21,133 bases of DNA from a virus, in IMG/VR virus record IMGVR_UViG_3300029448_000530, positions 1 through 21,133 of that record; one strand, written 5' to 3'. Positions within the stretch are counted from its first letter, which is position 1, and the number at the start of each line of letters is the position of its first letter. Under the pieces are notes generated by a model, which was not told the DNA's origin, made no database searches, and was given only the letters and a program-made list of their open reading frames with translations. The position numbers were made by a program, and so were the translations under genes. Shown one piece after another: positions 1,440 through 20,412 of this stretch.

Positions 1440-1674
1440 TTTACTTAAAGATAATTTTGGAAGCAATAACGGAAAACCTAATTGTGATTGGGATTGGTAC
1501 ACTTGGAATACTGAGTTTAATTACGATGTTCCTTCCCGCGGATTCAAAAATAAAGAAGATTTTTACTTTCATAACAAAGAAATAGATTGCACAGTTCCTG
1601 AACCTGCCGCGATTGGTATGGTTATTACAGGATGCTTAGTTGCACTCTTAGCTAAACATAGGATAACTAGATGA
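1372..1674 (+). CDS. Small protein with a PEP-CTERM-like C-terminal tail
   Basis: This 100-residue protein has a basic N terminus, an aromatic-rich middle (DWDWYTWNTEFNYDVPSRGF) and a C terminus made of VPEP, a hydrophobic stretch of about 17 residues (AAIGMVITGCLVALLA) and a basic tail (KHRITR). That three-part pattern is the layout of PEP-CTERM sorting signals, or at least of a C-terminal tail anchor. No N-terminal signal peptide is visible. The only in-frame ATG before the tail is 1372, giving a 68-base overlap with the upstream gene. The TGA overlaps the portal ATG as ATGA, which supports translation of this frame. A second, hydrophobic ORF (1436-1585) lies within it in another frame. Function unknown. 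Confidence 0.5.
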   Translation: MSLNNPLKHQTHKPKKETPAQYDLLKDNFGSNNGKPNCDWDWYTWNTEFNYDVPSRGFKNKEDFYFHNKEIDCTVPEPAAIGMVITGCLVALLAKHRITR

Positions 1675-3236
1675 TTAATGATACCGCAGAGCAACTCTAC
1701 ACTAAATGTGAGGGCGACCGTTGGAGTTATCTCGACCGCGCAAGAACTTGTTCTAAGCTAACATTGCCTTATGTAGTGCCAGAGGATGGATTCGGAACAC
1801 ACAGTCGATTAGAAACACCCTTTCAAGGCATTGGTGCGCGCGGAGTAAATAACCTCGCATCCAAATTACTGTTAGCACTCCTCCCACCTAATGCCCCCTT
1901 TTTCCGTCTTAATATAGACGAATATATGCTCATGCAAGAAGGAGCAGAAGAAGAAATCATCACGGAGATTGAGACAACCTTACAGCGTATAGAAGAAAGT
2001 GTAATGGACGAGGTTTCGGCTCAATCGTACCGAGTTGGTATTCACGAAGCTATTAAACACCTAATTATTTCTGGAAACGCTCTGTTATATATGCCAGATG
2101 AAGGTGGGCTTCGTGTCTTTCATATAGACCGTTATGTAATTAAACGCGACCCAATGGGCAACTTGTTATACTTAGCTACTAAAGAAACAGTGGCTTACAA
2201 CGCTTTACCACAAGAAATGCAAGAAGCTCTAGGCACGTACGAAAAAGACGTTGGCGATAACTGTGATTTATACACCGCAGTTAAGCGTGTAGATAATAAA
2301 TGGCATGTATACCAAGACATAAAAGGTATTACTATGCCAACCGAAGGTGTGTATGACCTAGAAAAATGTCCCTACATCCCTCTTCGCTTTTCTAAAATTG
2401 ATGGTGAAGACTATGGACGAGGTTATGTTGAAGAGTATCTAGGAGACTTACAGAGTTTAGAAACCCTGACTCAAGCAATCGTTGAAGGTTCTTCAGCCGC
2501 CGCTAAGGTATTGTTTCTTGTGAATCCTAATGGAACCACACGGGCTAGAGCTTTAGCTGAAAGTCCTAACGGAGCTATTACTCAAGGTAATGCGGCAGAT
2601 GTATCTGTCTTACAACTTAATAAGTTTAACGATTTTCGCGTAGCGCAGGAAACAATTAATACAATACGTGACCGGTTAGGACACGCCTTCTTACTATCAT
2701 CTGGCGTCGTGCGTAATGCTGAACGTGTAACGGCTGAAGAAATTAGAATGTTATCTTTAGAGCTCGAATCCGCTCTCGGTGGGTTGTACTCTTTACTTAG
2801 TAACGAGATGCAATTACCTATGATTAACCGACTAATGGATGTGATGAAGGGCAACAAGCGTATTCCTAAACTTCCTAAAGACATTGTAAACCCTGTTATT
2901 ATTACAGGTGTAGAAGCTCTTGGACGTGGGCATGATTTACAAAAGTTAGATATGTTCTTAGCTGGAGCCACTCAAGTTGTTGGTGCTGAAGCTGTTGCAC
3001 AACATCTTAATGTAGGTGAATACTTTAGCCGTCGAGCAACTGCTCTCGGTATTAAAACAACAGGACTAGTTAAGTCCACAGAAGAGTTGCAAGCTGAACA
3101 ACAGCAACAACAACAAGCGATGCAACAACAACAAATGGTGCAATCTATGGGAGCTCCCGTCATTAAAGCGGCAAGTGAACAGATGAAAAGCATTCGAGAA
3201 ACTCCACAACAAGAAACTAGCGAGGTAGAACAGTAA
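1671..3236 (+). CDS. Portal (head-tail connector) protein, T7 gp8-like
   Basis: This protein forms the dodecameric portal at the capsid vertex through which DNA is packaged and ejected. Its 521 residues are close to the 535 of T7 gp8. The N-terminal signature GIGARGVNNLASKLLLALLPP (about residues 52-72, split here by family comparison) closely matches the T7-type connector family. Other typical segments are ISGNALLYMP (about 132-141) and GEDYGRGYVEEYLGDLQSLE (about 245-264). The C terminus carries two glutamine runs (3099-3134) and is probably flexible. It starts at the ATG overlapping the previous TGA and ends in TAATG with the scaffold gene, so portal and scaffold are translationally coupled, as expected for a capsid-assembly operon. 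The start is well supported. Confidence 0.95.
   Translation: MINDTAEQLYTKCEGDRWSYLDRARTCSKLTLPYVVPEDGFGTHSRLETPFQGIGARGVNNLASKLLLALLPPNAPFFRLNIDEYMLMQEGAEEEIITEIETTLQRIEESVMDEVSAQSYRVGIHEAIKHLIISGNALLYMPDEGGLRVFHIDRYVIKRDPMGNLLYLATKETVAYNALPQEMQEALGTYEKDVGDNCDLYTAVKRVDNKWHVYQDIKGITMPTEGVYDLEKCPYIPLRFSKIDGEDYGRGYVEEYLGDLQSLETLTQAIVEGSSAAAKVLFLVNPNGTTRARALAESPNGAITQGNAADVSVLQLNKFNDFRVAQETINTIRDRLGHAFLLSSGVVRNAERVTAEEIRMLSLELESALGGLYSLLSNEMQLPMINRLMDVMKGNKRIPKLPKDIVNPVIITGVEALGRGHDLQKLDMFLAGATQVVGAEAVAQHLNVGEYFSRRATALGIKTTGLVKSTEELQAEQQQQQQAMQQQQMVQSMGAPVIKAASEQMKSIRETPQQETSEVEQ
3099..3134 (+). repeat. CAA/CAG run encoding two polyglutamine tracts in the portal C terminus
   Basis: Six consecutive Gln codons, then Ala-Met, then four more Gln codons. 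All are CAA except one CAG. The tract lies in the variable C-terminal tail of the portal and is probably a length-variable linker rather than a structured element. Confidence 0.8.
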
Positions 3237-4003
3237 TGGGTGAATCAAATTCATATTCGGTACAGGCAACGGAAACGCCTGAACCAACACTTCAAGATGC
3301 GTCTGATGCTCTTGATGTACAAGAACAAGAAACAATAGATGCGCAAGAAAACCAAAAGCCAATGACTTACGAAGAGGAACGTCCAGAGTGGCTTCCTGAA
3401 AAGTTCGATAGTCCTGAAGCTATGGCGGAAGCGTACGCAAACCTAGAAGGTAAACTTGGGCAACCCGCCGAAGAAAACGAAGTGCCTGAGCATGAACAAA
3501 AGACAGGCGACGTTGAATACGACAATACCGTTGAAGGAGCATCTAATGAGTTTGCTGAAAAAGGCGAGCTATCGGAAGCTACTTATGACGCGCTTAAAAA
3601 GCAAGGTCTTAACAAAGCAATGGTTGACACATACATTGCAGGACAACAAGCAATTGTAGCTCAACAGCAAATGGAAATAACTAATGAGATTGGCGGTATG
3701 CAAGAATACCAAAAGCTATCTAACTGGGCGTCAGAGACACTCTCCGATGAAGACTTACAAGCGTACAATGAAACCGTTGAAGCTGGTTCCGTGTCTCAAG
3801 CTAAGTTCGCTATTAAATCTTTGTATAGCCAATATCAAGCCGCCGGCGCACCACGAATAGCGCAAGGCTCTGTTAATGGCGCAGGGATTCCTCCTTTTAG
3901 CTCGCGTCAGCAAGTAGTAGCCGCTATGCGTGACAGCCGTTACGAGACTGACCCTGCTTACCGTGACGAAGTAACGAAACGTTTAGCTAGGAGTAATGTG
4001 TAA
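3236..4003 (+). CDS. Capsid assembly scaffolding protein, T7 gp9-like
   Basis: This is the internal scaffold that guides capsid shell assembly around the portal and leaves before or during DNA packaging. The 255-residue protein is strongly acidic and Gln/Glu-rich, as usual for this family (T7 gp9 is 307 residues, so this one is somewhat shorter). The conserved block RPEWLPEKFDSPEAMAEAYA (about residues 49-68) is characteristic of podoviral scaffolds. The C-terminal part is helical and ends in a basic segment (RLARSNV), consistent with the shell-binding end. It lies between portal and capsid genes as in T7, although here a lysis-type insertion separates it from the capsid gene. It overlaps the portal gene (TAATG) and the downstream membrane-protein gene (TAATG). 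Confidence 0.9.
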   Translation: MGESNSYSVQATETPEPTLQDASDALDVQEQETIDAQENQKPMTYEEERPEWLPEKFDSPEAMAEAYANLEGKLGQPAEENEVPEHEQKTGDVEYDNTVEGASNEFAEKGELSEATYDALKKQGLNKAMVDTYIAGQQAIVAQQQMEITNEIGGMQEYQKLSNWASETLSDEDLQAYNETVEAGSVSQAKFAIKSLYSQYQAAGAPRIAQGSVNGAGIPPFSSRQQVVAAMRDSRYETDPAYRDEVTKRLARSNV

Positions 4004-5388: not shown

Positions 5389-6456
5389 ATGGCATACGGA
5401 GACGTAAATGCTTCACGCTTGGGGCAAGCTAATGCTTCAGGTGATACTAATGCGTTGTTCTTGAAGGTGTTCGCAAATGAAATCTTAACTACGTTTGAAG
5501 AAGCGACAGTTATGAAAGGTTTGCACACCATCCGGACAATTCAATCAGGTAAATCAGCACAATTCCCAGTAACGGGTATTGCGACTGCTAAATACCATAC
5601 AGTCGGAGAAGACATCCTAGAATCAACTTCGGGATATGCTTCTAAAATTAAACACGGTGAGAAAGTTATCAACATTGATGACGTTCTATTAGCATCAACC
5701 TTCATTCCTAACATTGACGAAATGAAGAACCATTACGACGTTCGTAGCATCTACGCTAAAGAACTTGGTAAGGCTCTTGCAACACGTTTTGACATTGCTA
5801 CTATGAAGACATTGTTTGCGGCGGCAGGTGCATCTAGTGAAATCGGTTTAGCTGGTGGAACTACACTTGACGTTTCAGATGGTAATTGTGCAGGTCTTTC
5901 TACTGCATCAAACATCATCTCAACAATTACTACGATTGCTCAGAAGTTCGACGAAAATGACGTTCCTTCTGACGACCGTTTCATATTGTTGACACCTGAA
6001 AGCTACTACAAGTTAGTTAGTGCTAATACAGATGCAATATCGTTTGACTTAGGAAGCCAAAACGGAGCGGGTTATTCTCGATTAGAGAACCCACTGTTGT
6101 CTACAGGTCAAGTAAGCGTTGCTGAAGCTAGAGTTGCTAAAGTAGCTGGAATTAGTGTATTCAAGACTAACCACCTAAAAGACGTCATTGACGCGGGTAA
6201 CCTGTCAACTACTGCTACTGATGACGGCGCATCTAACAACGATGTTAATGTTACTGCTGGTGTTGGTTACAACGCTAACTTCACAGGACTACAAGCACTT
6301 GCGGGAACTAAGCAAGCGATTGGTACTGTTAAGTTAATGGACTTGTCTACTGAGTCTGAGTACATAATGACTAAACAAGGTACAGCTCTCGTTGCGAAGT
6401 ATGCAATGGGTCATGGCGTTCTACGTCCTGAATGTGCAATTAAAGTCGTAGCGTAA
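5389..6456 (+). CDS. Major capsid protein, T7 gp10-like
   Basis: This is the main shell protein of the icosahedral head. Its 355 residues compare with 345 for T7 gp10A. The N terminus (ALFLKVFANEILTTFEEATV), then HTIRTIQSGKSAQFPVTGIA, the central NIDEMKNHYDVRSIYAKELG and the segment PSDDRFILLTPESYYKL are all typical of the T7-type HK97-fold capsid family. The C terminus ends at MGHGVLRPECAIKVVA. No slippery sequence is evident near the stop, so I see no sign of a gp10B-like frameshift product. The gene has its own long leader with a strong AAGGAG site and is followed by a strong terminator, so it sits at the end of a transcript for maximal expression, as in T7. Confidence 0.95.
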   Translation: MAYGDVNASRLGQANASGDTNALFLKVFANEILTTFEEATVMKGLHTIRTIQSGKSAQFPVTGIATAKYHTVGEDILESTSGYASKIKHGEKVINIDDVLLASTFIPNIDEMKNHYDVRSIYAKELGKALATRFDIATMKTLFAAAGASSEIGLAGGTTLDVSDGNCAGLSTASNIISTITTIAQKFDENDVPSDDRFILLTPESYYKLVSANTDAISFDLGSQNGAGYSRLENPLLSTGQVSVAEARVAKVAGISVFKTNHLKDVIDAGNLSTTATDDGASNNDVNVTAGVGYNANFTGLQALAGTKQAIGTVKLMDLSTESEYIMTKQGTALVAKYAMGHGVLRPECAIKVVA

Positions 6457-6535: not shown

Positions 6536-9500
6536 ATGTCGCTAGATGTAATTGGAACCCGCACAACTTTACAAGACTCTGTAAATGTGTGCTTGAGTGT
6601 AATCGGGGAAACCCCTGTAAATTCGATAACAGGCTCAAGTCTACCTACACAAGTAGCACTGGCAAAACAAACGCTTCAAGAAGTAAACCGTGATGTTCAA
6701 TCCAAAGGGTGGTGGTTTAACACAAGTAGCTCAGATATAAATATCTATCCGATTGACGCAAACGCGGACGGACAAACTTTAACAAACAACTGGTCTACCG
6801 CAATTCCTGAAGAAGCCCGCCGATATATTACTATTCGCGCCGCGCGTGTACTTCAAAGCCGTTTTGTTAGTAGCGAAGAACTCCATAAATTTTCTTACAA
6901 CGAAGAACTCGTATCTCTTGCAACATTACAAACTGCTAATGTGCGTAGTGGTGGTGGTAATACCAATCAAAGCACTTATACCTTTTCTGCTTTTCCTGCT
7001 GACCTAAAAAACTTAGGTATTGAAGAAGTAATGTTTCTCCAAGGTTCTGCCGAGGAAAAACTTTTAACACTTCGCTTAGGAACAGAGCTTAAACAACAAG
7101 CTAAACTAGCGGCAGAAAAGTTACAAATAGAAAAACAAGTTTTAACAGAGGTTGCACAAGAACTTAAGGTTGACGCAGAGACAGCTTTATTAACCGCACA
7201 AGAATTAAAGGTAGATGCGGAGACCGCCCTTACTAATGACCAAGAAGCTCTAGTTACTCAACAGGCTCTTACAGAAGCTCAAGAAACTACTAGGAAAACA
7301 AGGGAAGCAGAGTTATTAGATACCCAAGAAACTTTGGTAACTCAACAGCAACTAACTGAGGTTCAAGAAACAACTAAACGTACTAGAGAACACGAACTTA
7401 TTGACGCACAAGAAACCTTATTACAGAAACAAATTTTAACCGAAACCGAGCAAGTTGCTAAAGTACAAGAAGAAGTAGATTTACTACAATCACAACAGCT
7501 TAAAGTAGATGCTGAAGAATTATTAATAGATGCACAAAAATCAAAAACTGATGCAGAAGCTGCGTTAATAGCAGACCAAGAAGCTTTAGTAACTCAGCAA
7601 AAACTTACCGAAGTACAAGAAACTACTAAACGCCAAAGAGAAGCTGAGCTACTTGATTCACAAGAATTAAAAGTACAAGAAGAAATTGATTTACTTCAAA
7701 AACAAGATACTAAAATGGATGAAGAGATTGATTTATTACAATCTCAAGATTTAGACGTTCAAGCTGATACTACTTTAAAAGGTAAACAGGGTAGTTTAAT
7801 AGATGCTCAAAAGCTTAAAACTGATGAAGAAACTGATTTATTAGAATCTCAACAATTAAAAACTGACGCTGAAAAACTATTAATAGACGCTCAAGAGTTA
7901 AAGACTGATGCAGAAACTGCCTTATTAACAGCTCAGGAATTAAAAGTAGATAAAGAAACTTTGGATGTACAAGCCGACACTACATTAAAAGGCAAACAGG
8001 GTGCGTTAATAGATTCTCAGGAACTTAAAACTGATGCAGAAAAATTACTTGTTGATGCTCAAGAATTAAAAACAGATGCTGAAACTGCTTTATTAACAGC
8101 AGAGGAATTAAAAACTGATGCCGAAAAACTTCAAGTAGATGCTCAAACAGCTTTGTTAACAGCTCAAGAGTTAAAAGTTGATAAAGAAGTTGTACGAATG
8201 GATGAAGAGATTGATTTATTACAATCTCAAGATTTAGATGTCCAAGCTGACACTACGCTTAAAGGTAAGCAAGGAGCTTTAGTAGACGCTCAAGAACTCA
8301 AAACTGACGCTGAGACTACGCTTACAACTAAGCAAGGTGCTTTAGTAGATGCGCAAGAATTAAAGACTGATGCAGAGAAGTTACAAGTAGACGCTCAGAC
8401 TGCTTTATTAACAGCACAAGAACTTAAAGTAGACAAAGAAACTTTAACTGAAGTCGCTCAAGAACTTAAAATTGATGCGGAAGCTGCTCTTATAACATCG
8501 CAAACAACTACTGACGCAACACAGCGTACTTTAATTGCCGCGCAAGAATTAAAAACAGATGCGGAGACTACACTAACTACTAAACAAGGTGCTTTGGTAG
8601 ACGCTCAAGAACTTAAAACTGATGCTGAAACTAGTCTTACATCTAAACAAGGTTTACTAGTTGATGCCCAAGAATTAAAAACCGATTCGGAAAAATTATT
8701 AGTAGATGCTCAAACTTCACTTACAGCCGACCAAGAACTTAAGACAGTTGCCGAGAAACAATTACTAGAGTCTCAAAAAACCCAAGTAGATACCCAGACT
8801 GCCTTAGAACTAACCGAAGAGAAAGCATACTCCGACGCTATTACTGGTATATCTAGTGGCACAACTTATCGTGACTTCGCGGCAGAGTTAAGAATGATGG
8901 GAGTACAAGAACCTACTTTCTACCAGCTACCTGCTTACAAGAAGAAAGAAGCACTTAAAGACGCTACAAAACTACGTACGTCAACAGCCACAGAAACAGG
9001 CTCAGATGCCATTGAGATAGCGACCGTTAACAACATTAGACGTATGATTGGGGAAGCTCCAATAACCGCTTTAAACGGTGATTCTATGGCTTCTGAAGCC
9101 GTTAGATTACTTCGTAAGACATCTACTGAAATGCAAGGGCGTGGCTGGTGGTTTAATACTGAGTATGATGTTGAGTTTACGGCTGATGGAACTGGACGAA
9201 TAGCTACTTTTGGTATGTTAACTGTTGAGTTAAATGACTACAATACTCGCATAAAAAATGTCAGCGGAACTAAATATCTGTATGATTACAAAACAAAATC
9301 ATACACGACATTTTCAGGAACTACTAAAGGTAAAGTTATCTACGAGCGTTCCTTAGACGACATCCCACAAAAGTTCCAAGAATACCTTGAAGTACGTGTG
9401 GCAATCCTACTAACTGAGATGTACCCCAGAGATGGCGTAGACATCCAGCGTCTTCCTCGTATCGAAAGAGAACTAGAGGCTTACTTTAAGGACAGAGAAA

Positions 9501-9583
9501 ATGATGAAGGAAACTACAGCATCTTCGACAACTATCATACAGCGAGCCGCATTGGAATTAATAGGAACTACGACATAGTATAA
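6536..9583 (+). CDS. Tail tubular protein A (gp11-like) with duplicated domain and giant coiled-coil insertion
   Basis: T7 gp11 (196 residues) forms the adaptor ring between portal and tail nozzle; this protein has 1015. Residues about 826-1015 are a complete gp11-like domain (VNNIRRMIGEAP, GRGWWFNT, DIPQKFQEYLEVR). Residues about 14-130 are a second, shorter copy (VNVCLSVIGETP, SKGWWFNT, AIPEEARRYITIR) lacking much of the middle beta region. Between them, residues 207-766 are 80 heptads with no break in register, of the type AQELKTD AETALLT; three more heptads precede them. A roughly 35-residue module occurs on both sides of the rod: ADLKNLGIEEVMF (154-166) and AELRMMGVQEPTF (783-795). The start has AAAGGAG upstream. 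The gp11 assignment of the C-terminal domain is strong. The rod's role (long appendage or fibre anchor) is inference. Confidence 0.85.
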   Translation: MSLDVIGTRTTLQDSVNVCLSVIGETPVNSITGSSLPTQVALAKQTLQEVNRDVQSKGWWFNTSSSDINIYPIDANADGQTLTNNWSTAIPEEARRYITIRAARVLQSRFVSSEELHKFSYNEELVSLATLQTANVRSGGGNTNQSTYTFSAFPADLKNLGIEEVMFLQGSAEEKLLTLRLGTELKQQAKLAAEKLQIEKQVLTEVAQELKVDAETALLTAQELKVDAETALTNDQEALVTQQALTEAQETTRKTREAELLDTQETLVTQQQLTEVQETTKRTREHELIDAQETLLQKQILTETEQVAKVQEEVDLLQSQQLKVDAEELLIDAQKSKTDAEAALIADQEALVTQQKLTEVQETTKRQREAELLDSQELKVQEEIDLLQKQDTKMDEEIDLLQSQDLDVQADTTLKGKQGSLIDAQKLKTDEETDLLESQQLKTDAEKLLIDAQELKTDAETALLTAQELKVDKETLDVQADTTLKGKQGALIDSQELKTDAEKLLVDAQELKTDAETALLTAEELKTDAEKLQVDAQTALLTAQELKVDKEVVRMDEEIDLLQSQDLDVQADTTLKGKQGALVDAQELKTDAETTLTTKQGALVDAQELKTDAEKLQVDAQTALLTAQELKVDKETLTEVAQELKIDAEAALITSQTTTDATQRTLIAAQELKTDAETTLTTKQGALVDAQELKTDAETSLTSKQGLLVDAQELKTDSEKLLVDAQTSLTADQELKTVAEKQLLESQKTQVDTQTALELTEEKAYSDAITGISSGTTYRDFAAELRMMGVQEPTFYQLPAYKKKEALKDATKLRTSTATETGSDAIEIATVNNIRRMIGEAPITALNGDSMASEAVRLLRKTSTEMQGRGWWFNTEYDVEFTADGTGRIATFGMLTVELNDYNTRIKNVSGTKYLYDYKTKSYTTFSGTTKGKVIYERSLDDIPQKFQEYLEVRVAILLTEMYPRDGVDIQRLPRIERELEAYFKDRENDEGNYSIFDNYHTASRIGINRNYDIV
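7154..8833 (+). repeat. Heptad repeat array, 80 units of 21 bases, inside the tail tubular A gene
   Basis: I split the translation by hand into 40 blocks of 14 residues (80 heptads) with no insertion or deletion. The usual unit begins with Ala, Asp, Ser or Lys followed by Gln or Glu, with Leu at position 4 or 5, as in AQELKTD, AETALLT and KQGALVD. At DNA level many units differ at synonymous sites, but some longer blocks are identical: 42 bases at 7714-7755 recur at 8197-8238. The last heptad is degenerate. As an uninterrupted alpha-helical coiled coil this would span roughly 80 nm. Confidence 0.9.
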
Positions 9584-12500: not shown

Positions 12501-12585
12501 AGAGAACGATAGCGCACTCCCTGCTAACTTTAGTAGTGCGGAGTTTGAGACGTTTGTCCACGAGAGGTCGAAGCGGTTTGGATGA
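9583..12585 (+). CDS. Tail tubular protein B / nozzle (gp12-like)
   Basis: This protein forms the hexameric nozzle at the tail tip below the gp11 ring. Its N terminus, LINQALPNLIGGVSQQPDVT then a block ending GLSKRPQTKHV, matches the T7 gp12 pattern (NLKGGISQQPD, GLQKRPP). Later family segments include PSFVNRAINDIFIYKDRLGF and the GQKKLLSAWSKF region. It has 1000 residues against 794 in T7. The extra length appears to lie mainly in residues about 180-430, which are Ser/Thr/Asn/Gly-rich and beta-like. Base composition shifts inside the gene: hand-counted 60-base lines near 10861 and 11461 are about 25% G+C, and the line at 12061 is about 63%. The ATG overlaps the previous TAA (TAATG). Confidence 0.92.
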   Translation: MPLINQALPNLIGGVSQQPDVTRFEGQCEAQENALSSIVDGLSKRPQTKHVAELVSSAISNNSFTHFINRTADEKYVVIHDGSSLKVFNLDGTNATIDSAASKTCGEGEYLYTTNPKQDLKALTIGDKTFILNKNTNVLPDYTSSSALLSKEAGLFIKQGDYGKNYGVSFSGNFNTSNTSAGIARCNIVFERKYRSRTSPYGHAAFQRFCIGVKSINFNTSGTTGHGSATGGFDYLANEPITINLPDTVLSQIINANGTNIQYGGLLFGTDLDPSSSVSSSNANLDTYSLGSFSISSVSSTGAIQGITVNNGGKYGLMNHDYDHESWASGDFVVKNVAISAPTGAAHYGTATVLEAEIQSALSGVNNVDTEVIINTLITDSSATTTSLSDVGNGKVFQSVDRTNNDNFVAPADHTTANPRTEFEYKKSNNLLIFSRASNLGDFDISANDGIGGLGIGAFYKQTSAITNLPLYNKNGFRIKIVGDADSTADEYYVKFETKNNAPYGEGSYVEDIGYNVLQTIDSNTLPFALTLNAENEFTSGALAMASRKVGDDTSNPMPSFVNRAINDIFIYKDRLGFLTEDHIVMSEAGLGVVENGELKFNFFKTTVTTLLDSAAIDVTVSSNRVTNLKAAIGFQENLILFSDNMQFGLKSGELLTPNSVSVNPITNFEFDQTVEPLGLGSYLYFPFQRGSFSGIREFTVNSTTDNYDAEEITEHIPTYIPSDLETMVGSTSEDIIIGFAPSTPKTLYIYKYFWGGQKKLLSAWSKFLLPFEVRGFDVFEGTMYVVGTKESKTHLLSMPLQSGLKDTGMNYNTYLDMRKEQTLSNATAVPLGFTASAGDRVQVWDDEGQSLHDQTLTSTATSVTLGTAHTGKVFSGLAYTMKYVFSEQVFKQQAGNSKAPSGFTRAQIRNGALFFNDTRGFKVKVKPDNRDETTHTFTPTLIGTSSAGNIELNSGNFRFPVFTDAQGTTITVENDSALPANFSSAEFETFVHERSKRFG

Positions 12586-13057
12586 TTTGGTTAAAGAGTA
12601 CAAGAGTGGGTACAAAGTAGTTGTAGCCCACCCACGGCACATCCCTTACTTAGCTGAACATATACGTAAAGAAGACCTTCTTGAAATCTCTTGTTTTAAT
12701 CACAAACCCACTGAGGTTTTCCAAACAGCCTTAGAACAAGATGAGTCTACCTTTACTGTACTTACACCGGACGGAGTGCCCTTTGCAATGTTTGGTGCAG
12801 GTAAGATTGAAGAGGAAACGTATATATGGATGCTTGGTACAGATGATGTACGGAAACACGCAATGGCTTTTATGAAATACTCACGAGAGTGGGTATGGGG
12901 GTTTGTAGGTATATATGAAAAGGTATGTAACTACGTGCACTCAGAAAACAAATTAGCCCTAAAATGGCTCGACTGGTGTGGAGCTGATTTTACAACCCAA
13001 ATAGAAATTAACGGAGAACTTTTCTTTAAATTTGAAATCGAGATGAAAAATGTGTGA
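12578..13057 (+). CDS. gp13-like virion assembly / internal virion protein A (GNAT-like fold)
   Basis: From TTG 12578 the protein has about 159 residues. The C-terminal part, with NYVHSENKLALKWLDWCGADF followed here by a FKFEI-type strand, is typical of the phage Gp13-like/DUF2833 family. That family resembles N-acetyltransferases but is treated as a virion assembly or internal protein. There is no ATG at the N terminus. TTG 12578 (with GAGAGG about ten bases upstream) or TTG 12587 suits the first conserved residues. GTG 12536 would add a 14-residue Arg-rich extension entirely inside gp12 and looks less likely. The gene lies between gp12 and gp14 as in T7 and overlaps the next start by eight bases. 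Confidence 0.75.
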   Translation: MDDLVKEYKSGYKVVVAHPRHIPYLAEHIRKEDLLEISCFNHKPTEVFQTALEQDESTFTVLTPDGVPFAMFGAGKIEEETYIWMLGTDDVRKHAMAFMKYSREWVWGFVGIYEKVCNYVHSENKLALKWLDWCGADFTTQIEINGELFFKFEIEMKNV

Positions 13058-13619
13058 CCCAGTAAGTATAGGAATAGCCGCCGCCCAAACAGGGATGAGC
13101 ATAGGAGCTCAGAAAAAACAAGCTAAGGCGCAAAAACAGGCTCAAAAAGCGGGAATTGAAAGAGAAAATATACGCTTTAGGCAAGAGATGTCAGCCAAAC
13201 GTATTAAGGAAGCACAAGACAATAAAATAGCCGTCAGTGAAATTACCGAAACAATAGAAAAAACCAGACAAGCTAAAGCAACCGCGCGTGTGTCCGCAGG
13301 TGAAGCCGGTGTTAGCGGACAGTCGGTACAACAACTACTAAACAGTTTTGAAAGACAGGAAGCTCAAGCTTTGTTTGCTATTAGTGAACAACAAGCTATG
13401 GGACGCGTGAATACTTTATTACAAGACGAACAATCTATATTTAGCTCAGAGAACCGTATATCTCAAATTAATCAACCTATAGAACAACCCGACTATTTAG
13501 GAGCCGCTGTTAATTTAGCCGGACAAGGTATGGGTATTTACAAAGATGTTAAAGCGCAAGACCTTATGAAATCTCAACTGAAATTAAACGAGTTAAAAAT
13601 AACGGAGATGGGAGGGTAA
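13050..13619 (+). CDS. Internal virion protein B (gp14-like)
   Basis: This 189-residue protein compares with 196 for T7 gp14, an ejected protein that forms the outer-membrane part of the DNA channel. It begins MCDPVSIGIAAAQTGMSIGA, a Cys at position 2 and a small-residue amphipathic helix like the MCW start of T7 gp14. A long Gln/Lys/Glu/Ala helical region follows (about 22-130), then a hydrophobic Gly/Ala segment near residues 148-162 (YLGAAVNLAGQGMGIY). The order gp13-gp14-gp15-gp16 agrees. Its stop is directly followed by the ATG of the gp15-like gene, whose ribosome-binding site (GGGAGGG) lies in the last codons of this gene. Confidence 0.85.
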   Translation: MCDPVSIGIAAAQTGMSIGAQKKQAKAQKQAQKAGIERENIRFRQEMSAKRIKEAQDNKIAVSEITETIEKTRQAKATARVSAGEAGVSGQSVQQLLNSFERQEAQALFAISEQQAMGRVNTLLQDEQSIFSSENRISQINQPIEQPDYLGAAVNLAGQGMGIYKDVKAQDLMKSQLKLNELKITEMGG

Positions 13620-16010
13620 ATGGCTAAAAAACAAACATTAAAAAGTTTACTTGGAGTCTCTGATGACCGCGTAGAGGTAGAATTAAACTTACCTAAGCCA
13701 CGCCTTCAAAACACTATACAACGTGCGGGCGCGTACAGCACCGCTTTTGTTGCGCCTCCAAAAACAAACAACTTACAACGAATTGCAGATGCTTTAGGAA
13801 AAATTAATCCTATTATCAGTGATTATCGGGATGCAAAAAACTTAGGAAAAGAAGCCGAGATTACTGAAGGCGAAGCGGGTGTTCTTGAATTTAAAAACTT
13901 TCTTGCTGGAGCAGACCAAGAAACTAAAGACAAAGCCCTGAAAGACCTAATGTCTCAGCAAGATAAGACACGAGCCGACATCGATAAATATTTTCGGAAC
14001 GAATACGGACTAAACCCGTTGGCTTCTATAAGAGCTCAAAAACTTTTAGGTGCATCTAAAGAAGCTGAGTTTTTAGCGTACCGCAATAAAAAGGTACAAG
14101 AGTACCAAACTAATAATATTAAAACTACAGGTAAACTTCCTACAAAAGAAGATGTACAATCGTTTGTTTACGGTTTATCGGATGCTTTTCTTGAAGAAGA
14201 AGGAATACAACTAACAAAAGGCTCTCTGGCACACCAAGGGTTTATGACTTCTATCATGGAGCAAACAGGGCAAGATATTGCTACGCTTGAAACCACCTTT
14301 GCAGACTACCATAAAACAAATGTAGCTATACCCCTTGTATCTTCGAGTATAATTCAAGGGATGGAAAAGTATAGCGACAACCCTAAGAAAGCCTTAGAAT
14401 TTGTTACACAAGCTTGGAAAGACACAGGAATGTTTGATACAGAAGACCAAGCTCAAGTTCTTAAAAGTGCGTTTGCGTTAATTCCTGCGGAAAACTTAGA
14501 CGAAGCAGATGAATTTTTAGAGCTGTTAGCTGACAATATAAAAATTGGTAATCAGTCATTTAGAGACGCTAGTGCTGTCTTTAATGCCATTGAAGATGAC
14601 ATCGAAGACCGTTTTGAAGCCTTTCAAAAAGACGAAGATATAAAACTACGTAAAGAAACTGATACCACAATTGCTGAGTATCGCACAAATGTTAGAACGT
14701 TGATTTCTTCCGGAAAAGGCACCGAAGCAGTAAAATTCCTCGCCGAAGAAGAAGAAAACCTTAGGGAAGAAATTGGAGAACGCAAACCAACTGAGTATGA
14801 AAATGAAATATTAAATTCCTTGTTTGAACAACGCTTAAGCATTTCGCAACTAGAAGACCAAATACATTTAGACATAGAAAAACGTTCTGGTTTAGGTATC
14901 AATCGTACTAATGGGTTAATGGGTCGAGGAGCTACCCAAGGTAAAAGCAATTTTGATAAACAACACCCAGAGCTTGCAACAATAATAGCAGGATTGGACA
15001 TAAACCAACCTTCGTTTTCATACAACTTTAATTCAGGCGAAATGGAGTTAGAACTTGAAGGGTTTCACACAATGCAACCTGCTGTTCAAGCTTGGTTAAC
15101 AGCAAAAGACAACGCTTTAAACACAGTGTTACAAGAAGGAATTATTGACCCACAACTACAAGGAAAAAGATTTGGTGAGTTAATGGTCGAACATGATAAA
15201 GCGTTTGTAGCTGATTTAGAACAAGCGTCTTATAATTATTACTACGGACTAGCGACCCAAACACGTTTAGAACAAAATCAACAAGCCGCTACATCTAATA
15301 AAGAACTTATGGAGGCTACTGCTGAAACACTCTTTGATGACAAAGGTCAAATAACAGGGAAAGCATTGGGAGAAATAAGAAAGGTTTACAATGAAGCCAA
15401 CATTGGATTTTTTAACCAAACACAAGAACTAGACCAAAACGAAGCACAAACATTTTACACATACGGAATGGCTATTAATGGTTTACCAGACGGGGATGAA
15501 AAAAATACAAAACAAGCTCAATGGAATAAAACACATGCCCAAATTATTCAAAACTCGCGGGCTAAAAGACAATCATTAATAGACCAAGCAAACAAAATCG
15601 CTTTACCTCCTATTCAACAAGATTTTGGCTTTAGAGGTGGTTCTGGACGTGCTGTAGTCGGCGAACGAGACGCGATACGAATACAAGAAAATTCAGTTGC
15701 GCGTCAAAACAACTTTATGTCATCAAAGTCACAAGAATTTGCGGACGCTCTTCGATTTGAAACATTTACGCAGGACGAAACATTAAACTTATTACGAACA
15801 GGAAACGCAAGCGGAAACATAACCAAAGAACTGTATCACTCAAGTGGGTTTAGACTTCCGCCTAACTTCTTTTCTCCGCAAAACTTTGTTCAAATTTCCG
15901 GATTAGACGCTAACAGTAAAACAACTCAAGAAATTGCTCGTTTAATGAATATGAAAGTTGAAGATTTAATCGCGAACCAAAAAGACATAGCTGAAATGAG
16001 AGACCAATAA
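13620..16010 (+). CDS. Internal virion protein C (gp15-like)
   Basis: This 796-residue protein compares with 747 for T7 gp15, which with gp16 forms the periplasmic and inner-membrane part of the ejection channel. The assignment rests mainly on position and size. The sequence is largely helical, charged and Gln-rich, with no membrane helix. N-terminal residues about 30-85 (NTIQRAGAYSTAF, LQRIADALGKINPIISDYRD) resemble the start of gp15-type core proteins. It starts immediately after the gp14 stop with a strong GGGAGGG site and ends one base before the gp16-like ATG. Sequence divergence from T7 is high, so an equivalent ejection protein of another lineage cannot be excluded. Confidence 0.75.
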   Translation: MAKKQTLKSLLGVSDDRVEVELNLPKPRLQNTIQRAGAYSTAFVAPPKTNNLQRIADALGKINPIISDYRDAKNLGKEAEITEGEAGVLEFKNFLAGADQETKDKALKDLMSQQDKTRADIDKYFRNEYGLNPLASIRAQKLLGASKEAEFLAYRNKKVQEYQTNNIKTTGKLPTKEDVQSFVYGLSDAFLEEEGIQLTKGSLAHQGFMTSIMEQTGQDIATLETTFADYHKTNVAIPLVSSSIIQGMEKYSDNPKKALEFVTQAWKDTGMFDTEDQAQVLKSAFALIPAENLDEADEFLELLADNIKIGNQSFRDASAVFNAIEDDIEDRFEAFQKDEDIKLRKETDTTIAEYRTNVRTLISSGKGTEAVKFLAEEEENLREEIGERKPTEYENEILNSLFEQRLSISQLEDQIHLDIEKRSGLGINRTNGLMGRGATQGKSNFDKQHPELATIIAGLDINQPSFSYNFNSGEMELELEGFHTMQPAVQAWLTAKDNALNTVLQEGIIDPQLQGKRFGELMVEHDKAFVADLEQASYNYYYGLATQTRLEQNQQAATSNKELMEATAETLFDDKGQITGKALGEIRKVYNEANIGFFNQTQELDQNEAQTFYTYGMAINGLPDGDEKNTKQAQWNKTHAQIIQNSRAKRQSLIDQANKIALPPIQQDFGFRGGSGRAVVGERDAIRIQENSVARQNNFMSSKSQEFADALRFETFTQDETLNLLRTGNASGNITKELYHSSGFRLPPNFFSPQNFVQISGLDANSKTTQEIARLMNMKVEDLIANQKDIAEMRDQ

Positions 16011-16011
16011 T

Positions 16012-19000
16012 ATGGGAATATTTGACGAAACCGCTGAAAACCTTGCAAAAGGAGCAGTAAAATCTGCCGCCCCTGTTGACAAGAAGGAAAAACCAAATGC
16101 ACTTAAAGATATTGCTTTAGCGGTTCCTAGAGGTATTGAAGGATTTGCGCAGAGTATATACAACTTAGGTGATGCTGTAGTTGGTGACGCCCTTCCCGAC
16201 TATAACGAAAGATTTTTAGGACGCTCAGAAACGATGGTAGGTGGATTCGTCGAGGGAGCAACGCAGTTTATGACGGGCTTTGTACCTATCATGGGGGCAA
16301 TGGGCAAAGCTGGAAAAATTGCGACTCTTTCTAATAAAACTAAAGGAGCCGCTGGGTTACTTGCTAAAGGTCAGAACCATTTAAAGCCAGAGATGTTAGG
16401 AGCTATTTCAAAGCTAAAACCTAAACAAAGACTCGCTTTACAAACTATAGGTGCGTCAGCCGCCACGGATTTCTTAGCCTTTGATGCTCAAGAAGAAAGG
16501 CTTGCAGATTTAATACAACAATTTCCTGCCCTACAAAACCCCGTAGCTGAGTTTTTACAAGCAGACGACACAGACGGACAAATTGAAGGACGCCTTAAGA
16601 ACGTATTAGAAGGTTTGTTTATTGAAGCAGGTATTGGAGCTATTGCAGTGCCCTTTCTCAAAGGTATTAAGCTAATTAAGAACCGTAATAAAAAGATGGC
16701 TAACGGCATGGACAAAACCGAAGCTACTGAAAGTTCTCTTAAAGAAACTGATTTAACCGAAGACGAAGTTACATATAATTACATTACTCGCGAAGAAGCT
16801 CGTATGGACCGAGCAGAAGAAGACGCACTAATAGACGAAATGGGTGGAGACTACGAAAGCCCCTTTTCACGTGAAGGGCGCAAACCAGAAAATACAGATT
16901 TTCGTGAAGAGGCTAATGTCTCTGCTGATACTCCTGTAGATGAGAATGGTGTTGTACTCCCTCCTGAAGAACGTGAGTTGCCTGAGATGCCTATAGATTC
17001 AACTAAACCTATGCGTCTTAATCCAGATGACGACCCTAACCCTTTCGTAGACCCAAGCGACAAGCCGTCAGCTTTAGAACAAAACGCCGAATTTAATCAA
17101 GCACGCGCACAACGTGAAGCGGACGAAACAAAAACACCTACAACAGAAGAAGTAGACGGAGAGATACGCAGAGAAAATGACCTGTACAACGAAGTTAGAA
17201 AAGTTGTTACTAAAGTTCTAGATGACGCTGATACAATTAACGGCGGCTCCCAAGCTATTAAAAGTGCTTATCGCGGCTTCCGTACTACCAGTGAAAGAGC
17301 TGTTTTTGCTAAAGCGTTAGCGGAAGAACGGTTAGCTCGTCAAAAGAAAGCGGGTACAATACCTGAGACAAACGCTGAAGAGTTAACAACCGTTTCTACA
17401 GAACGTATGGACATCATGGGACAAGGTGAACCTAACAAGGTTGCGGCTCACTTAGCACGTCTTAAAAAAGGTGAAAACTCTACGGCAAAACTAGCGGAGT
17501 TTAGAGAAGAACAAAATGTTCTTTTTGAAGTTCAAGAGTTTGCCGCTGAAAATGTTACAGATGCCGCCCGCGCTTTCAGGCTTGCGAAAGAAAATGACGC
17601 TAAGTTTGATTCAGGTGGTGTGGAAAAAGCCCGAACTGAATTATTTATTGCACTAGAACAACTTACTGAAGCACAACAACTCTGGGCTGAATATGGTAGA
17701 GAGTTCTCTCTCGGTCTACTTGCTCGTAAGTTTCTTTATAAAAAAGGACATAAACGGCTAGGCGGTCGAGATGCTATTAAAGACAAACGACAAGGATTTG
17801 ACTTTGATAACCCAGAGATGGCTACAAAAGAAGCTATGGAAGAGTATCGTGACCGTATGCGCGGTTCAATGAACGAAGATAAAATGATTAACATTCTTAT
17901 TGCCGCTAGAGACGGTACCGATTTAAAACAACAGGTAGAAGCTATGGCTAAACTAAACGCCAAGCAAAGAGTAAGCCGCGGATTTGATATGGCTAAAGAA
18001 TATTGGATTAACTCATTATTAAGTGGTCCATCTACACAACTTGTTAACGTAATGGGTAACTCTCTTACTATGGCGATACGAAATGCCGAAGTAGTTGTAG
18101 GAGCCGCCATGCGTGGTGATATGAGTATTGTTAGAGCTAATTTAGATTTTTCATATTACATGGAATCTATTCAAGAAGCGTGGGCATTAACTAAGAAAAC
18201 GATGATAAAGAACGAGGCGCAGACTATTCCTGACCGCCGCGCTTTTCTCGAAACTAACTTTGACCGACGCGCAATAACAGCTAAAAACGCAGGTTTAGAT
18301 GACGACTCTACTCTTGGTAGAGCAGTAAATTGGATGGGTAATTTTGTTGGACTCCCTTCACGTTTCTTATTGTCAGGGGATGAGTTCTTTAAAGCTTTAA
18401 ACTACCGCCACTATGTTCGTACGGATTTAGCTGTAAAAGGTTATGATAAAGGGTTAAGAGGCAAGGAGTTAGCCGATTATGTAGAAACAAGGCACCAAGC
18501 GTCTATAACAAAACAAGGTGCTATGTACAACGAAGATTCTTTGTATCGTGAAGCCCAGCGCGCGGCAGACGAAACTGTTTCTAAAAAATATGGAACTAAA
18601 GGTCTTCAACATACAGAACGTCGCGCATTTGTTGATAAATACATGGAAGACAATCGCACTAAAATGGAAGGGTTTAATGAAACCCAACGTGAAGACCTAC
18701 TAGAGAGAGCAAAAACAGCAACCCTAGTAAACACACACACCCAAGACGCTAAGTTTGGGAGCCTTAAAGAAATAACAAAGATTGTTAATGACAACCCGTT
18801 ACTAACATTTGTTGTTCCTTTTATCCGTACCCCCGCAAACATTCTGAAGTTTGGTTTAGGTCGTACAGGAATAAAATTAGCCGATGTAAAAGGCTATAAG
18901 CAAATGGGTGAATTAAGAGCCTCGGAATTAAAAGCTAAAGAACTTAATCAAGTGTTTGAAATGGGAGACCGTAGAAAAATTGCAGAAATGAATGGACAGC

Positions 19001-19998
19001 TTTCTACTGCCGCTACAATGACCAGCTTGGCTTTGTGGTACGCCTACACTAACAAAGATTTTATTTCTGGATATGGTCCCCGAGACCCCGAAGAACGGGA
19101 ACTTTGGAAAAATGCCGGTAACCAAGAATACTCAATTAAGGTAGGAAACACCAACTACAGTTACCAACGACTAGACCCGTTTGCCACAATGCTCGGTGTT
19201 TATGCAGACTTAATCGAAGGTTCCAATAGTGGAGAACTTGACGGAGACAAAGCTTCTAATGTATTTGCTTTACTTGCGCTTACCTTCCAAAACAATATTA
19301 CTAACAAATCTTATGTGCAAGGTATCGACAACTTATTTCAAGTTATGCGCGACCCAATGAAAAATGGTAAACGTTTTGTTGGCAACATAGCCGCTGGTTT
19401 TGTGCCTAATGTACTTAACCAAGGAATGAATTACCAAGAAGGACGACTGTTACGTGAAACACGAGGGACTCTGGACTATTTATTAAAACGAACGCCAGTA
19501 TTAAATCAACGCTTAATGCCTAAACGTAATTTGTTTGGGGAAGCCATGACAATGCCTAGTAGCGGATTAGACGGTGTTCTTAACCCTATCTATCGTAAGG
19601 AAATATCTACCGATTTAGTTGACCACGAGTTTGCTAACTTAGGTCACGGGTTTAGTAAACCAACTGACAAACTATTTGGTGAGATTAATATGCACGATTT
19701 TACAAACGAAGATGGGCAAACAGCCTACGACCGTATGTTAGAACTCAGCGGAACCACTAAAATTAATGGACAAACTCAAAAGGAAGCCTTGAGAAAGCTT
19801 ATTCAACAACCAACGTATCAAGCAATGCCAATGGGTGATGATGACGACACAGGGACTAAAAGCCCTCGTGTTAAAGCTATACAACGTATTCAAAAAGCCT
19901 ACAGACGTAAAGCTAAATCACAAACGCTACAAGAATTTGACGAGTTAAGGAATGCGTATTCCACTCATCTTGTTAATAAAAAACAATACTTAAACTAA
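16012..19998 (+). CDS. Internal virion / ejection protein D (gp16-like), without visible transglycosylase domain
   Basis: Its 1328 residues are nearly the length of T7 gp16 (1318). The N terminus is Gly/Ala-rich with hydrophobic segments at about residues 80-110 (MVGGFVEGATQFMTGFVPIM) and 200-225 (LEGLFIEAGIGAIAVPFL). Residues 240-480 are acidic and charged, possibly disordered. The C-terminal 650 residues have a pattern I recognise from large phage ejection or polyvalent proteins: VVPFIRTPANILKFGLGRTG, DFISGYGPRDPEERELWKNA and NYSYQRLDPFATMLG. T7 gp16 carries a lysozyme-type domain at its N terminus; I find no Glu plus GxxQI arrangement here. The gene is last of the ejection cluster. Assignment is by size, order and C-terminal pattern. 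Confidence 0.8.
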   Translation: MGIFDETAENLAKGAVKSAAPVDKKEKPNALKDIALAVPRGIEGFAQSIYNLGDAVVGDALPDYNERFLGRSETMVGGFVEGATQFMTGFVPIMGAMGKAGKIATLSNKTKGAAGLLAKGQNHLKPEMLGAISKLKPKQRLALQTIGASAATDFLAFDAQEERLADLIQQFPALQNPVAEFLQADDTDGQIEGRLKNVLEGLFIEAGIGAIAVPFLKGIKLIKNRNKKMANGMDKTEATESSLKETDLTEDEVTYNYITREEARMDRAEEDALIDEMGGDYESPFSREGRKPENTDFREEANVSADTPVDENGVVLPPEERELPEMPIDSTKPMRLNPDDDPNPFVDPSDKPSALEQNAEFNQARAQREADETKTPTTEEVDGEIRRENDLYNEVRKVVTKVLDDADTINGGSQAIKSAYRGFRTTSERAVFAKALAEERLARQKKAGTIPETNAEELTTVSTERMDIMGQGEPNKVAAHLARLKKGENSTAKLAEFREEQNVLFEVQEFAAENVTDAARAFRLAKENDAKFDSGGVEKARTELFIALEQLTEAQQLWAEYGREFSLGLLARKFLYKKGHKRLGGRDAIKDKRQGFDFDNPEMATKEAMEEYRDRMRGSMNEDKMINILIAARDGTDLKQQVEAMAKLNAKQRVSRGFDMAKEYWINSLLSGPSTQLVNVMGNSLTMAIRNAEVVVGAAMRGDMSIVRANLDFSYYMESIQEAWALTKKTMIKNEAQTIPDRRAFLETNFDRRAITAKNAGLDDDSTLGRAVNWMGNFVGLPSRFLLSGDEFFKALNYRHYVRTDLAVKGYDKGLRGKELADYVETRHQASITKQGAMYNEDSLYREAQRAADETVSKKYGTKGLQHTERRAFVDKYMEDNRTKMEGFNETQREDLLERAKTATLVNTHTQDAKFGSLKEITKIVNDNPLLTFVVPFIRTPANILKFGLGRTGIKLADVKGYKQMGELRASELKAKELNQVFEMGDRRKIAEMNGQLSTAATMTSLALWYAYTNKDFISGYGPRDPEERELWKNAGNQEYSIKVGNTNYSYQRLDPFATMLGVYADLIEGSNSGELDGDKASNVFALLALTFQNNITNKSYVQGIDNLFQVMRDPMKNGKRFVGNIAAGFVPNVLNQGMNYQEGRLLRETRGTLDYLLKRTPVLNQRLMPKRNLFGEAMTMPSSGLDGVLNPIYRKEISTDLVDHEFANLGHGFSKPTDKLFGEINMHDFTNEDGQTAYDRMLELSGTTKINGQTQKEALRKLIQQPTYQAMPMGDDDDTGTKSPRVKAIQRIQKAYRRKAKSQTLQEFDELRNAYSTHLVNKKQYLN

Positions 19999-19999
19999 G

Positions 20000-20158
20000 A
20001 TGGACTCCCAACACATACCCCCAATAGTAGGCACAATCGGAATGCTCGGTTCATTCACGATTGGAGAAATCAATGAACTCGTCGGTATAGCCGTCGGTGT
20101 AACAACTTTAGTGTACCTAGTGGTACGCATAGCTAAGGAGATAAATAATAAGAAATGA
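20000..20158 (+). CDS. Holin-position small membrane protein (gp17.5-like)
   Basis: ATG at 20000, one base after the gp16-like stop; TGA at 20156-20158 overlapping the terminase ATG (ATGA). The 52-residue product begins MDSQHIPPIVGTIGMLGSF. It has one clear membrane helix at about residues 27-46 (ELVGIAVGVTTLVYLVVRI), preceded by a weakly hydrophobic Gly-rich segment, and ends with a basic tail (AKEINNKK). T7 gene 17.5, the class II holin of 67 residues, occupies the same place directly before the small terminase gene. Size, charge and position support a holin or holin-like role. With only one clear helix it might instead modulate the 3TM holin at 4003-4428. Confidence 0.65.
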   Translation: MDSQHIPPIVGTIGMLGSFTIGEINELVGIAVGVTTLVYLVVRIAKEINNKK

Positions 20159-20412
20159 GTAAAGAAACGGATAAGAAACTTCACAGTTTGCAGAGTATGC
20201 TTATTGATGAGTTTATTGGACGCATCCAGAGCGGAGAGGCTACTCCAAGTGACCTTAACGCGGCGAGACAATTACTCAAAGATAATGGTATTCACGCGGC
20301 TATGAAGCCTGACAACCCCCTAGCCAATCTGGTAGCAGGACTACCTTTCGACGATGAAAGTGACCGTGTTATTAAACGTGCGGAAGGAGTGATTAATGCG
20401 AAACTATCGTAA
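20155..20412 (+). CDS. Terminase small subunit (DNA maturase A, gp18-like)
   Basis: This 85-residue protein compares with 89 for T7 gp18. It would recognise concatemeric phage DNA and work with the large subunit in packaging. The N-terminal helical block LHSLQSMLIDEFIGRIQSGE followed by ATPSDLNAARQLLKDNGI (about residues 10-47) is the pattern of small terminases in T7-like marine phages. The C-terminal half (LANLVAGLPFDDESDRVI) is typical of the maturase A family. It starts inside the holin-position gene (ATGA) and overlaps the mini HNH gene by 17 bases. Context with gp19 confirms the packaging module. Confidence 0.85.
   Translation: MSKETDKKLHSLQSMLIDEFIGRIQSGEATPSDLNAARQLLKDNGIHAAMKPDNPLANLVAGLPFDDESDRVIKRAEGVINAKLS

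Follow-up and report, generated by a model that had tools for sequence, protein, structure and literature searches.

One gene of a T7-like phage, in which an N4-type heptad rod lies between two T7-type adaptor domains, probably provides the rings at the two ends of the tail as well as the entire tube. The tail length would be given by the number of heptads, which ranges from 3 to 83 in the family (about 4 to 87 nm) and could change by single-heptad steps between close relatives, and neither a tape measure nor a polymerised tube protein would be involved. The gene was analysed in a window of 21,133 bases, which is the whole stretch from position 1 to 21,133 of the IMG/VR record IMGVR_UViG_3300029448_000530.

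The plus strand of the window holds a T7-like structural module that extends from the portal to a small-terminase-like gene (Table 1). The nozzle is 1000 residues long compared to 921 in the phage AP013544, and its residues from about 176 to 475 are poorly conserved. The gp13-like reading frame also matched, below the cut-off, a histidine phosphatase profile in the C-terminal part of that profile. No gp17 fibre gene was found at 19998-20155 of the window, between the gp16-like and the small-terminase-like genes, which is the place of gp17 in T7; gp17-type fibre genes (PF03906) were present in 6 of 19 related contigs. A siphovirus tape measure was weighed as an identity of the rod protein and ranked lower, since there is no room for a separate tube gene between the capsid gene, the rod gene and the nozzle gene, and the large reading frames of the window that were tested matched T7-type parts or nothing.

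Table 1. Features of the structural module and of the rod protein in the window
Feature	Position	Strand	Evidence
T7-type portal	1671-3236	+	Pfam Head-tail_con, E 1.6e-86
Scaffold	3236-4003	+	
T7-type major capsid protein, directly upstream of the rod gene	5389-6456	+	Pfam Gp10A-like, E 5e-56
Putative dual-adaptor tail-tube protein, complete ORF, 1015 aa	6536-9583	+	Same-architecture homologs; downstream nozzle
N-terminal gp11-type copy, residues ~1-140	6536-6955	+	Pfam Tube; AF2; Foldseek
Pre-rod cap, residues 141-175, conserved F.AFPADL..LGIEEVMFLQ..EEK	6956-7060	+	Family conservation
Heptad rod, 586 aa, residues 176-761; proposed helical-barrel tail tube	7061-8818	+	Heptads; Schitoviridae tube similarity
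Post-rod cap, residues 762-818, conserved EK.(F/Y)...Y.D.A.E.R.MG.QE..F	8819-8989	+	Family conservation
C-terminal gp11-type copy, residues 819-1015, fibre dock and C-terminal arm	8990-9583	+	Pfam Tube; PDB; AF2
Fibre-dock beta strands within the C-terminal copy, residues 875-936, five strands	9158-9343	+	AF2, high pLDDT
T7 gp12-type nozzle, overlaps the rod-gene stop codon	9583-12585	+	Pfam Phage_nozzle, E 2e-192
gp13-like ORF	12536-13057	+	Match below curated cut-off
gp14	13050-13619	+	
796-aa ORF occupying the gp15 position	13620-16010	+	
gp16-like internal virion protein	16012-19998	+	
Small-terminase-like	20155-20412	+	

The two terminal domains of the rod protein were each scored alone with the Pfam Tube model (PF17212, T7 gp11), which has a curated cut-off of 22.3 bits. 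The N-terminal copy, for which an earlier note on this DNA had suggested a separate homology search, reached 85.8 bits (E 4.2e-24), and the C-terminal copy reached 68.3 bits (E 1e-18). This confirms the gp11-like domain that the note had placed at each end of the reading frame. The motifs it had named, IGE-P and GWWFNT, are found in both domains, as IGETP and GWWFNT near residues 24-63 and as IGEAP and GWWFNT near residues 838-875.

In the AF2 model the N-terminal copy is a four-helix bundle (helices 12-23, 38-57, 92-110 and 121-138) that has no beta strands and hence no fibre dock, and it also lacks a C-terminal arm. The C-terminal copy shows a four-helix bundle (825-837, 850-867, 945-962 and 972-992) together with the five strands. 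T7-type adaptors were the top-ranked Foldseek matches for the models of both copies, and the full-length model matched T7 gp11 with an E of 2.7e-10 (listed for the C-terminal copy). The closest PDB sequence to the C-terminal copy was T7 gp11 (E 2e-11); for the N-terminal copy it was the adaptor of cyanophage P-SCSP1u, of which about 60 residues were skipped in the alignment. The arm of the C-terminal copy, IFDNY.TASRIGINR, is 52% identical over that stretch to the single gp11 of AP013544, and the N-terminal copy holds the more canonical alpha1-alpha2 loop. As modelled, the N-terminal copy is not a whole gp11 but a bundle without the fibre dock, and the C-terminal copy is a complete adaptor fold. 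The proposed duplication of gp11 thus holds in that both copies are of the gp11 type, but the N-terminal one is without the beta fibre dock and the arm. The dock region of the C-terminal copy contains large insertions in the related loci L006, L010, L011, L053, L057 and L068, which in L068 are Thr/Ser-rich, and is strongly shortened in L002, L005, L038 and L047; fibre docking may differ among the relatives.

The rod consists of 83 heptads and 5 residues in a single frame with no phase change. It had been described as 560 residues of unbroken heptads, of which the uninterrupted frame was confirmed and the length had to be corrected to 586. At 1.48 Å per residue this would correspond to a tube of about 87 nm in the window, close to the 80 nm estimated before, and to about 4 to 87 nm in the family. 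The rod is free of Pro, Cys, Trp, Phe and Tyr. One heptad position is occupied by Q, N, E or D in 98.8% of the window heptads, compared to a maximum of 53% in 2000 shuffles, and is flanked on both sides of the helix by hydrophobic stripes (heptad positions 0/3 and 1/5). These flanks look like two seams rather than one, which would suit a helix packed between two neighbours next to a polar lumen; the resolution of the helical wheel is coarse and does not extend to the number of helices per assembly. The full-length AF2 model has low confidence in the rod, and breaks there were left uninterpreted. Matches of the rod to DUF3540 and Alanine_zipper were below their cut-offs and were taken as compositional.

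The relatives of the rod were searched for with the rod alone. When the L002 rod was compared by tblastn to 50,697 phage records, six matches were obtained, all to N4-like tail-tube genes, and the match in Presley is annotated as 'N4-like gp54'. A segment of the L012 rod matched the tube gene of a Vibrio schitovirus at the DNA level (77% identity, E 1e-12), and the protein stretch LVTNQ.ATELK.ALD..A.TT.KGKQGSLID.Q is common to both. The Vibrio tube is homologous to the solved tubes of N4, DEV, Moo19 and B2. For the rod of the window, the DEV gp75 tail tube was the only PDB match below E 0.1 (E 0.0027), and no match to the tube family PHROG 2050 was observed.

As a control, residues were shuffled within the heptad columns. 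The L012 and L002 rods scored against the Vibrio tubes with z of about 4 to 7 above these shuffles, the window's own rod with only about 1.6-3.5, and the similarity to the more distant PT15-A5 tube was mostly no better than the shuffles. The rods and the Schitoviridae tubes have a Q/E heptad spine in common. In three Vibrio phage isolates, the tubes are near-identical except for indels of exactly 7 and 28 residues; the length statistics of Schitoviridae tubes are limited to these three isolates because a scan of the BUCT194 tube against viral contigs found no relatives. At the sequence level, some members of the family establish a firm relationship between rod and tube. For the rod of the window, membership in this family and the shared heptad signature point to the same relationship.

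The search of IMG/VR gave about 80 related loci, with some 35 distinct ones complete. The nozzle gene lies downstream of the rod gene in all 41 testable loci, and the capsid gene lies at most 500 bp upstream in 37 of 64 loci and farther upstream in nearly all others. Since 32 of the 80 loci (L013, L020, L028 and others) end inside the gene, the data suggest that the family is under-counted, with rod repeats breaking the assemblies. In L033:5968-7612 and L067:5977-7658, which come from one sample, the N-terminal copy is out of frame with the rod and the C-terminal copy; this frameshift may be a sequencing error, decay or programmed frameshifting. When bacterial genome contigs were scanned, no member of the rod family was found; the matches were to other gp11 proteins, including one with tandem domains. 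The locus L101:5992-7605, on the Coralloluteibacterium stylophorae contig NZ_JAGQFT020000006.1, encodes a 537-residue prophage protein that lacks a rod and contains three gp11-like domains in tandem, with three GWYFNT motifs; a nozzle-like gene comes next. The match of this protein to single-copy tail tubular protein A is divided into three pieces, and only four relatives of it were found in viral contigs.

The rod length between two fixed anchors ranged from 26 to 586 residues, with 31 distinct lengths. The same remainder modulo 7 was obtained for 38 of the 39 distinct homologs and for 30 of the 31 distinct lengths, and among the periods from 2 to 15 only 7 and 14 showed this behaviour. A uniform binomial gave 8e-24; it treats the sequences as independent although they are related, so that the count of distinct lengths is the safer one. 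Three segments outside the rod, measured in the same way, had spread remainders and no modulo-7 rule. Where the N-terminal copies were at least 95% identical, each of the 71 pairwise rod-length differences was a multiple of 7, reaching up to 35 heptads among the listed pairs, and some identical N-terminal copies carry rods that are 3 to 13 heptads apart. Both odd and even numbers of heptads were found. A collapse of near-identical repeats in the assembly could alter some of the lengths, though presumably by whole repeat units. Indels in whole heptads would be expected in every long coiled coil, which counts against the tube reading. The nearest annotated phage, AP013544 (Ayaqvirus), has a portal that is 65-67% identical and an ordinary single gp11 of 198 residues. 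Because of this, the dual-adaptor architecture looks derived on an ordinary T7-like background.

We propose that twelve copies of the protein assemble into the tail. Their N-terminal helix bundles of the gp11 type would sit on the portal clip as a ring of twelve, and the heptad rods would run parallel and side by side away from the head as a helical barrel that carries the DNA and into whose lumen the Q/E position would point. At the far end, a second ring, made of the C-terminal gp11-type domains and their fibre docks, would hold the hexameric nozzle together with the fibres. How long the tail is would depend on how many heptads the gene encodes, and an in-frame gain or loss of whole heptads would change it. 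We infer the twelve-fold, DNA-carrying barrel from the sequence relationship to the Schitoviridae tubes. DEV gp75 is a dodecameric helical tube of about 330 Å in length, 36 Å inside and 63 Å outside, and its N-terminal part contacts the head-tail adaptor (PMC10925440); N4 gp54 and the Moo19 and B2 tubes belong to the same family. By analogy to T7, the symmetry would remain unchanged with 12, 12, 12 and then 6. A T7-like genome would in this way have a tail of siphovirus length.

A tail tube of either polarity is quite likely, and the orientation with the N-terminal ring at the portal and the C-terminal ring at the nozzle appears likely from the sequence features of the two copies. It agrees with the N4-type tube, whose N-terminus is at the head. 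The T7 fibre sits between two docks, one of the adaptor and one of the nozzle (PMC6702177), and no dock is present in the adaptors of P22 and Sf6, which do not have long fibres (PMC9509320). The model would explain why the dock is kept only in the C-terminal copy, as the ring of this copy would carry the nozzle and the fibres. The C-terminal arm of T7 gp11 embraces the portal (PMC6702177); in the family, the conserved arm of the C-terminal copy would hold the end of the tube in place of the portal.

The same tube could be built the other way round, with the arm of the C-terminal copy gripping the portal and the N-terminal ring meeting the nozzle at the distal end. Two features count against the polarity that we propose and could indicate this reversal, namely the arm, which the C-terminal copy has conserved with single-copy gp11, and the loop of the N-terminal copy, which resembles the canonical alpha1-alpha2 loop that contacts the nozzle in T7. 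The reversal would, however, separate the fibre dock from the nozzle by one tube length, although the fibres of T7 depend on both docks and relatives do carry gp17-type genes, and it would be at odds with the N4-type tube; we regard it as improbable. The portal contact residues (T7 D275 and 307-313) were tried as a test of polarity and were uninformative, as the pattern was the same in rod-bearing and single-gp11 phages. The use of the rod as a radiating tail appendage, fibre spacer or host-sensing arm, as suggested in the earlier note, is not supported. The C-terminal copy, which alone has both the dock and the arm, would then be the ordinary ring, and the rod with its gp11-like tip would project outward as a whisker, spacer or sensor. 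Fibres often contain long helical rods, but the rod-only searches of the 50,697 phage records and the PDB returned no fibre, whisker or appendage protein, only Schitoviridae tail tubes. In addition, conservation of the tip equals that of the ring domain (with pairwise identities averaging 0.64 for the N-terminal copy and 0.66 for the C-terminal copy across the family), unlike a receptor-binding tip, and a position that is polar in 99% of the heptads between two hydrophobic stripes would be odd for a two- or three-stranded rod. An appendage is thus unlikely.

The earlier note had also asked whether the two copies sit in one ring or in two. Two rings bridged by the rod fit best, whereas one shared ring, in which the twelve gp11 domains would come from six chains and each rod would fold back as an intrachain antiparallel hairpin, is very unlikely, because the frame of 586 residues is unbroken and without a turn and because odd as well as even heptad counts occur, which full pairing would not favour. 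In its favour, 12 is divisible by 2, and the three tandem copies without a rod in the L101 prophage protein would fit four chains. The least probable explanation, with hardly any chance of being correct, is an artefact of assembly or of repeats, or a rod that persists as a relic and has no structural function. The contigs are metagenomic, and repeats may have disturbed the assembly of the loci that end within the gene. Dozens of independent contigs nevertheless show the same architecture with non-identical heptads, a conserved Q/E column and lengths that strictly follow the modulo-7 rule, and isolated Vibrio phages have the same heptad-sized indels.

Each of the modules is known from other systems. 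T7 gp11 and its TTPA relatives (PF17212, PHROG 446; including P-SCSP1u gp22 and KP32 TTPA) resemble the family in that both domains of the window protein pass the Pfam model, that the gene is placed between the capsid and nozzle genes and that the C-terminal copy has the bundle and the five-stranded dock. T7 gp11 is a single domain of 196 residues, whereas the family has two copies per chain and a rod of 26-586 residues. The Schitoviridae tubes (N4 gp54, DEV gp75, Moo19 gp71, B2 gp34; PHROG 2050) share the similarity to the rod, the Q/E spine, the heptad-sized indels and a gene position shortly after the capsid gene. They are encoded by a separate gene and have their own N-terminal adaptor-contact element and C-terminal segment, whereas the rod of the window protein is flanked in the same chain by two gp11 domains, one of which takes the place of the adaptor-contact element. 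The H tube of phiX174 is also a helical heptad tube that translocates DNA, with a lumen lined mainly by N/Q/R (PMC7354561), and the tail channel of T7 is mainly negative (PMC6702177). The H tube is, however, a decamer formed by an injected pilot protein of a ssDNA phage, and as no sequence relationship to it was found, it serves as an analogy only. The tail of the Kuravirus SU10 has a T7-type portal, adaptor and nozzle and also lengthens beyond the usual podovirus tail, which it does by a rearrangement of the nozzle and the fibres on infection (PMC9509320), whereas in the window family the tube would be built into the adaptor.

For the fusion, the proposed dual ring and the length that the gene would set in heptad steps, no description was found in a literature search that covered few subscription journals. 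Short-tailed phages such as T7 and long-tailed phages are regarded as distinct designs, and long tails normally consist of many copies of a tube protein that are measured by a tape measure. If our reading is right, a widespread and so far undescribed group of T7-like phages would need only one polypeptide species to build tails that differ greatly in length, which would be read directly from the gene, and T7-type and N4-type tails would be linked through the exchange of modules. The family would then offer a natural series of helical DNA tubes with known lengths, and the evolution and the benefit of tail length would become testable by sequence alone.
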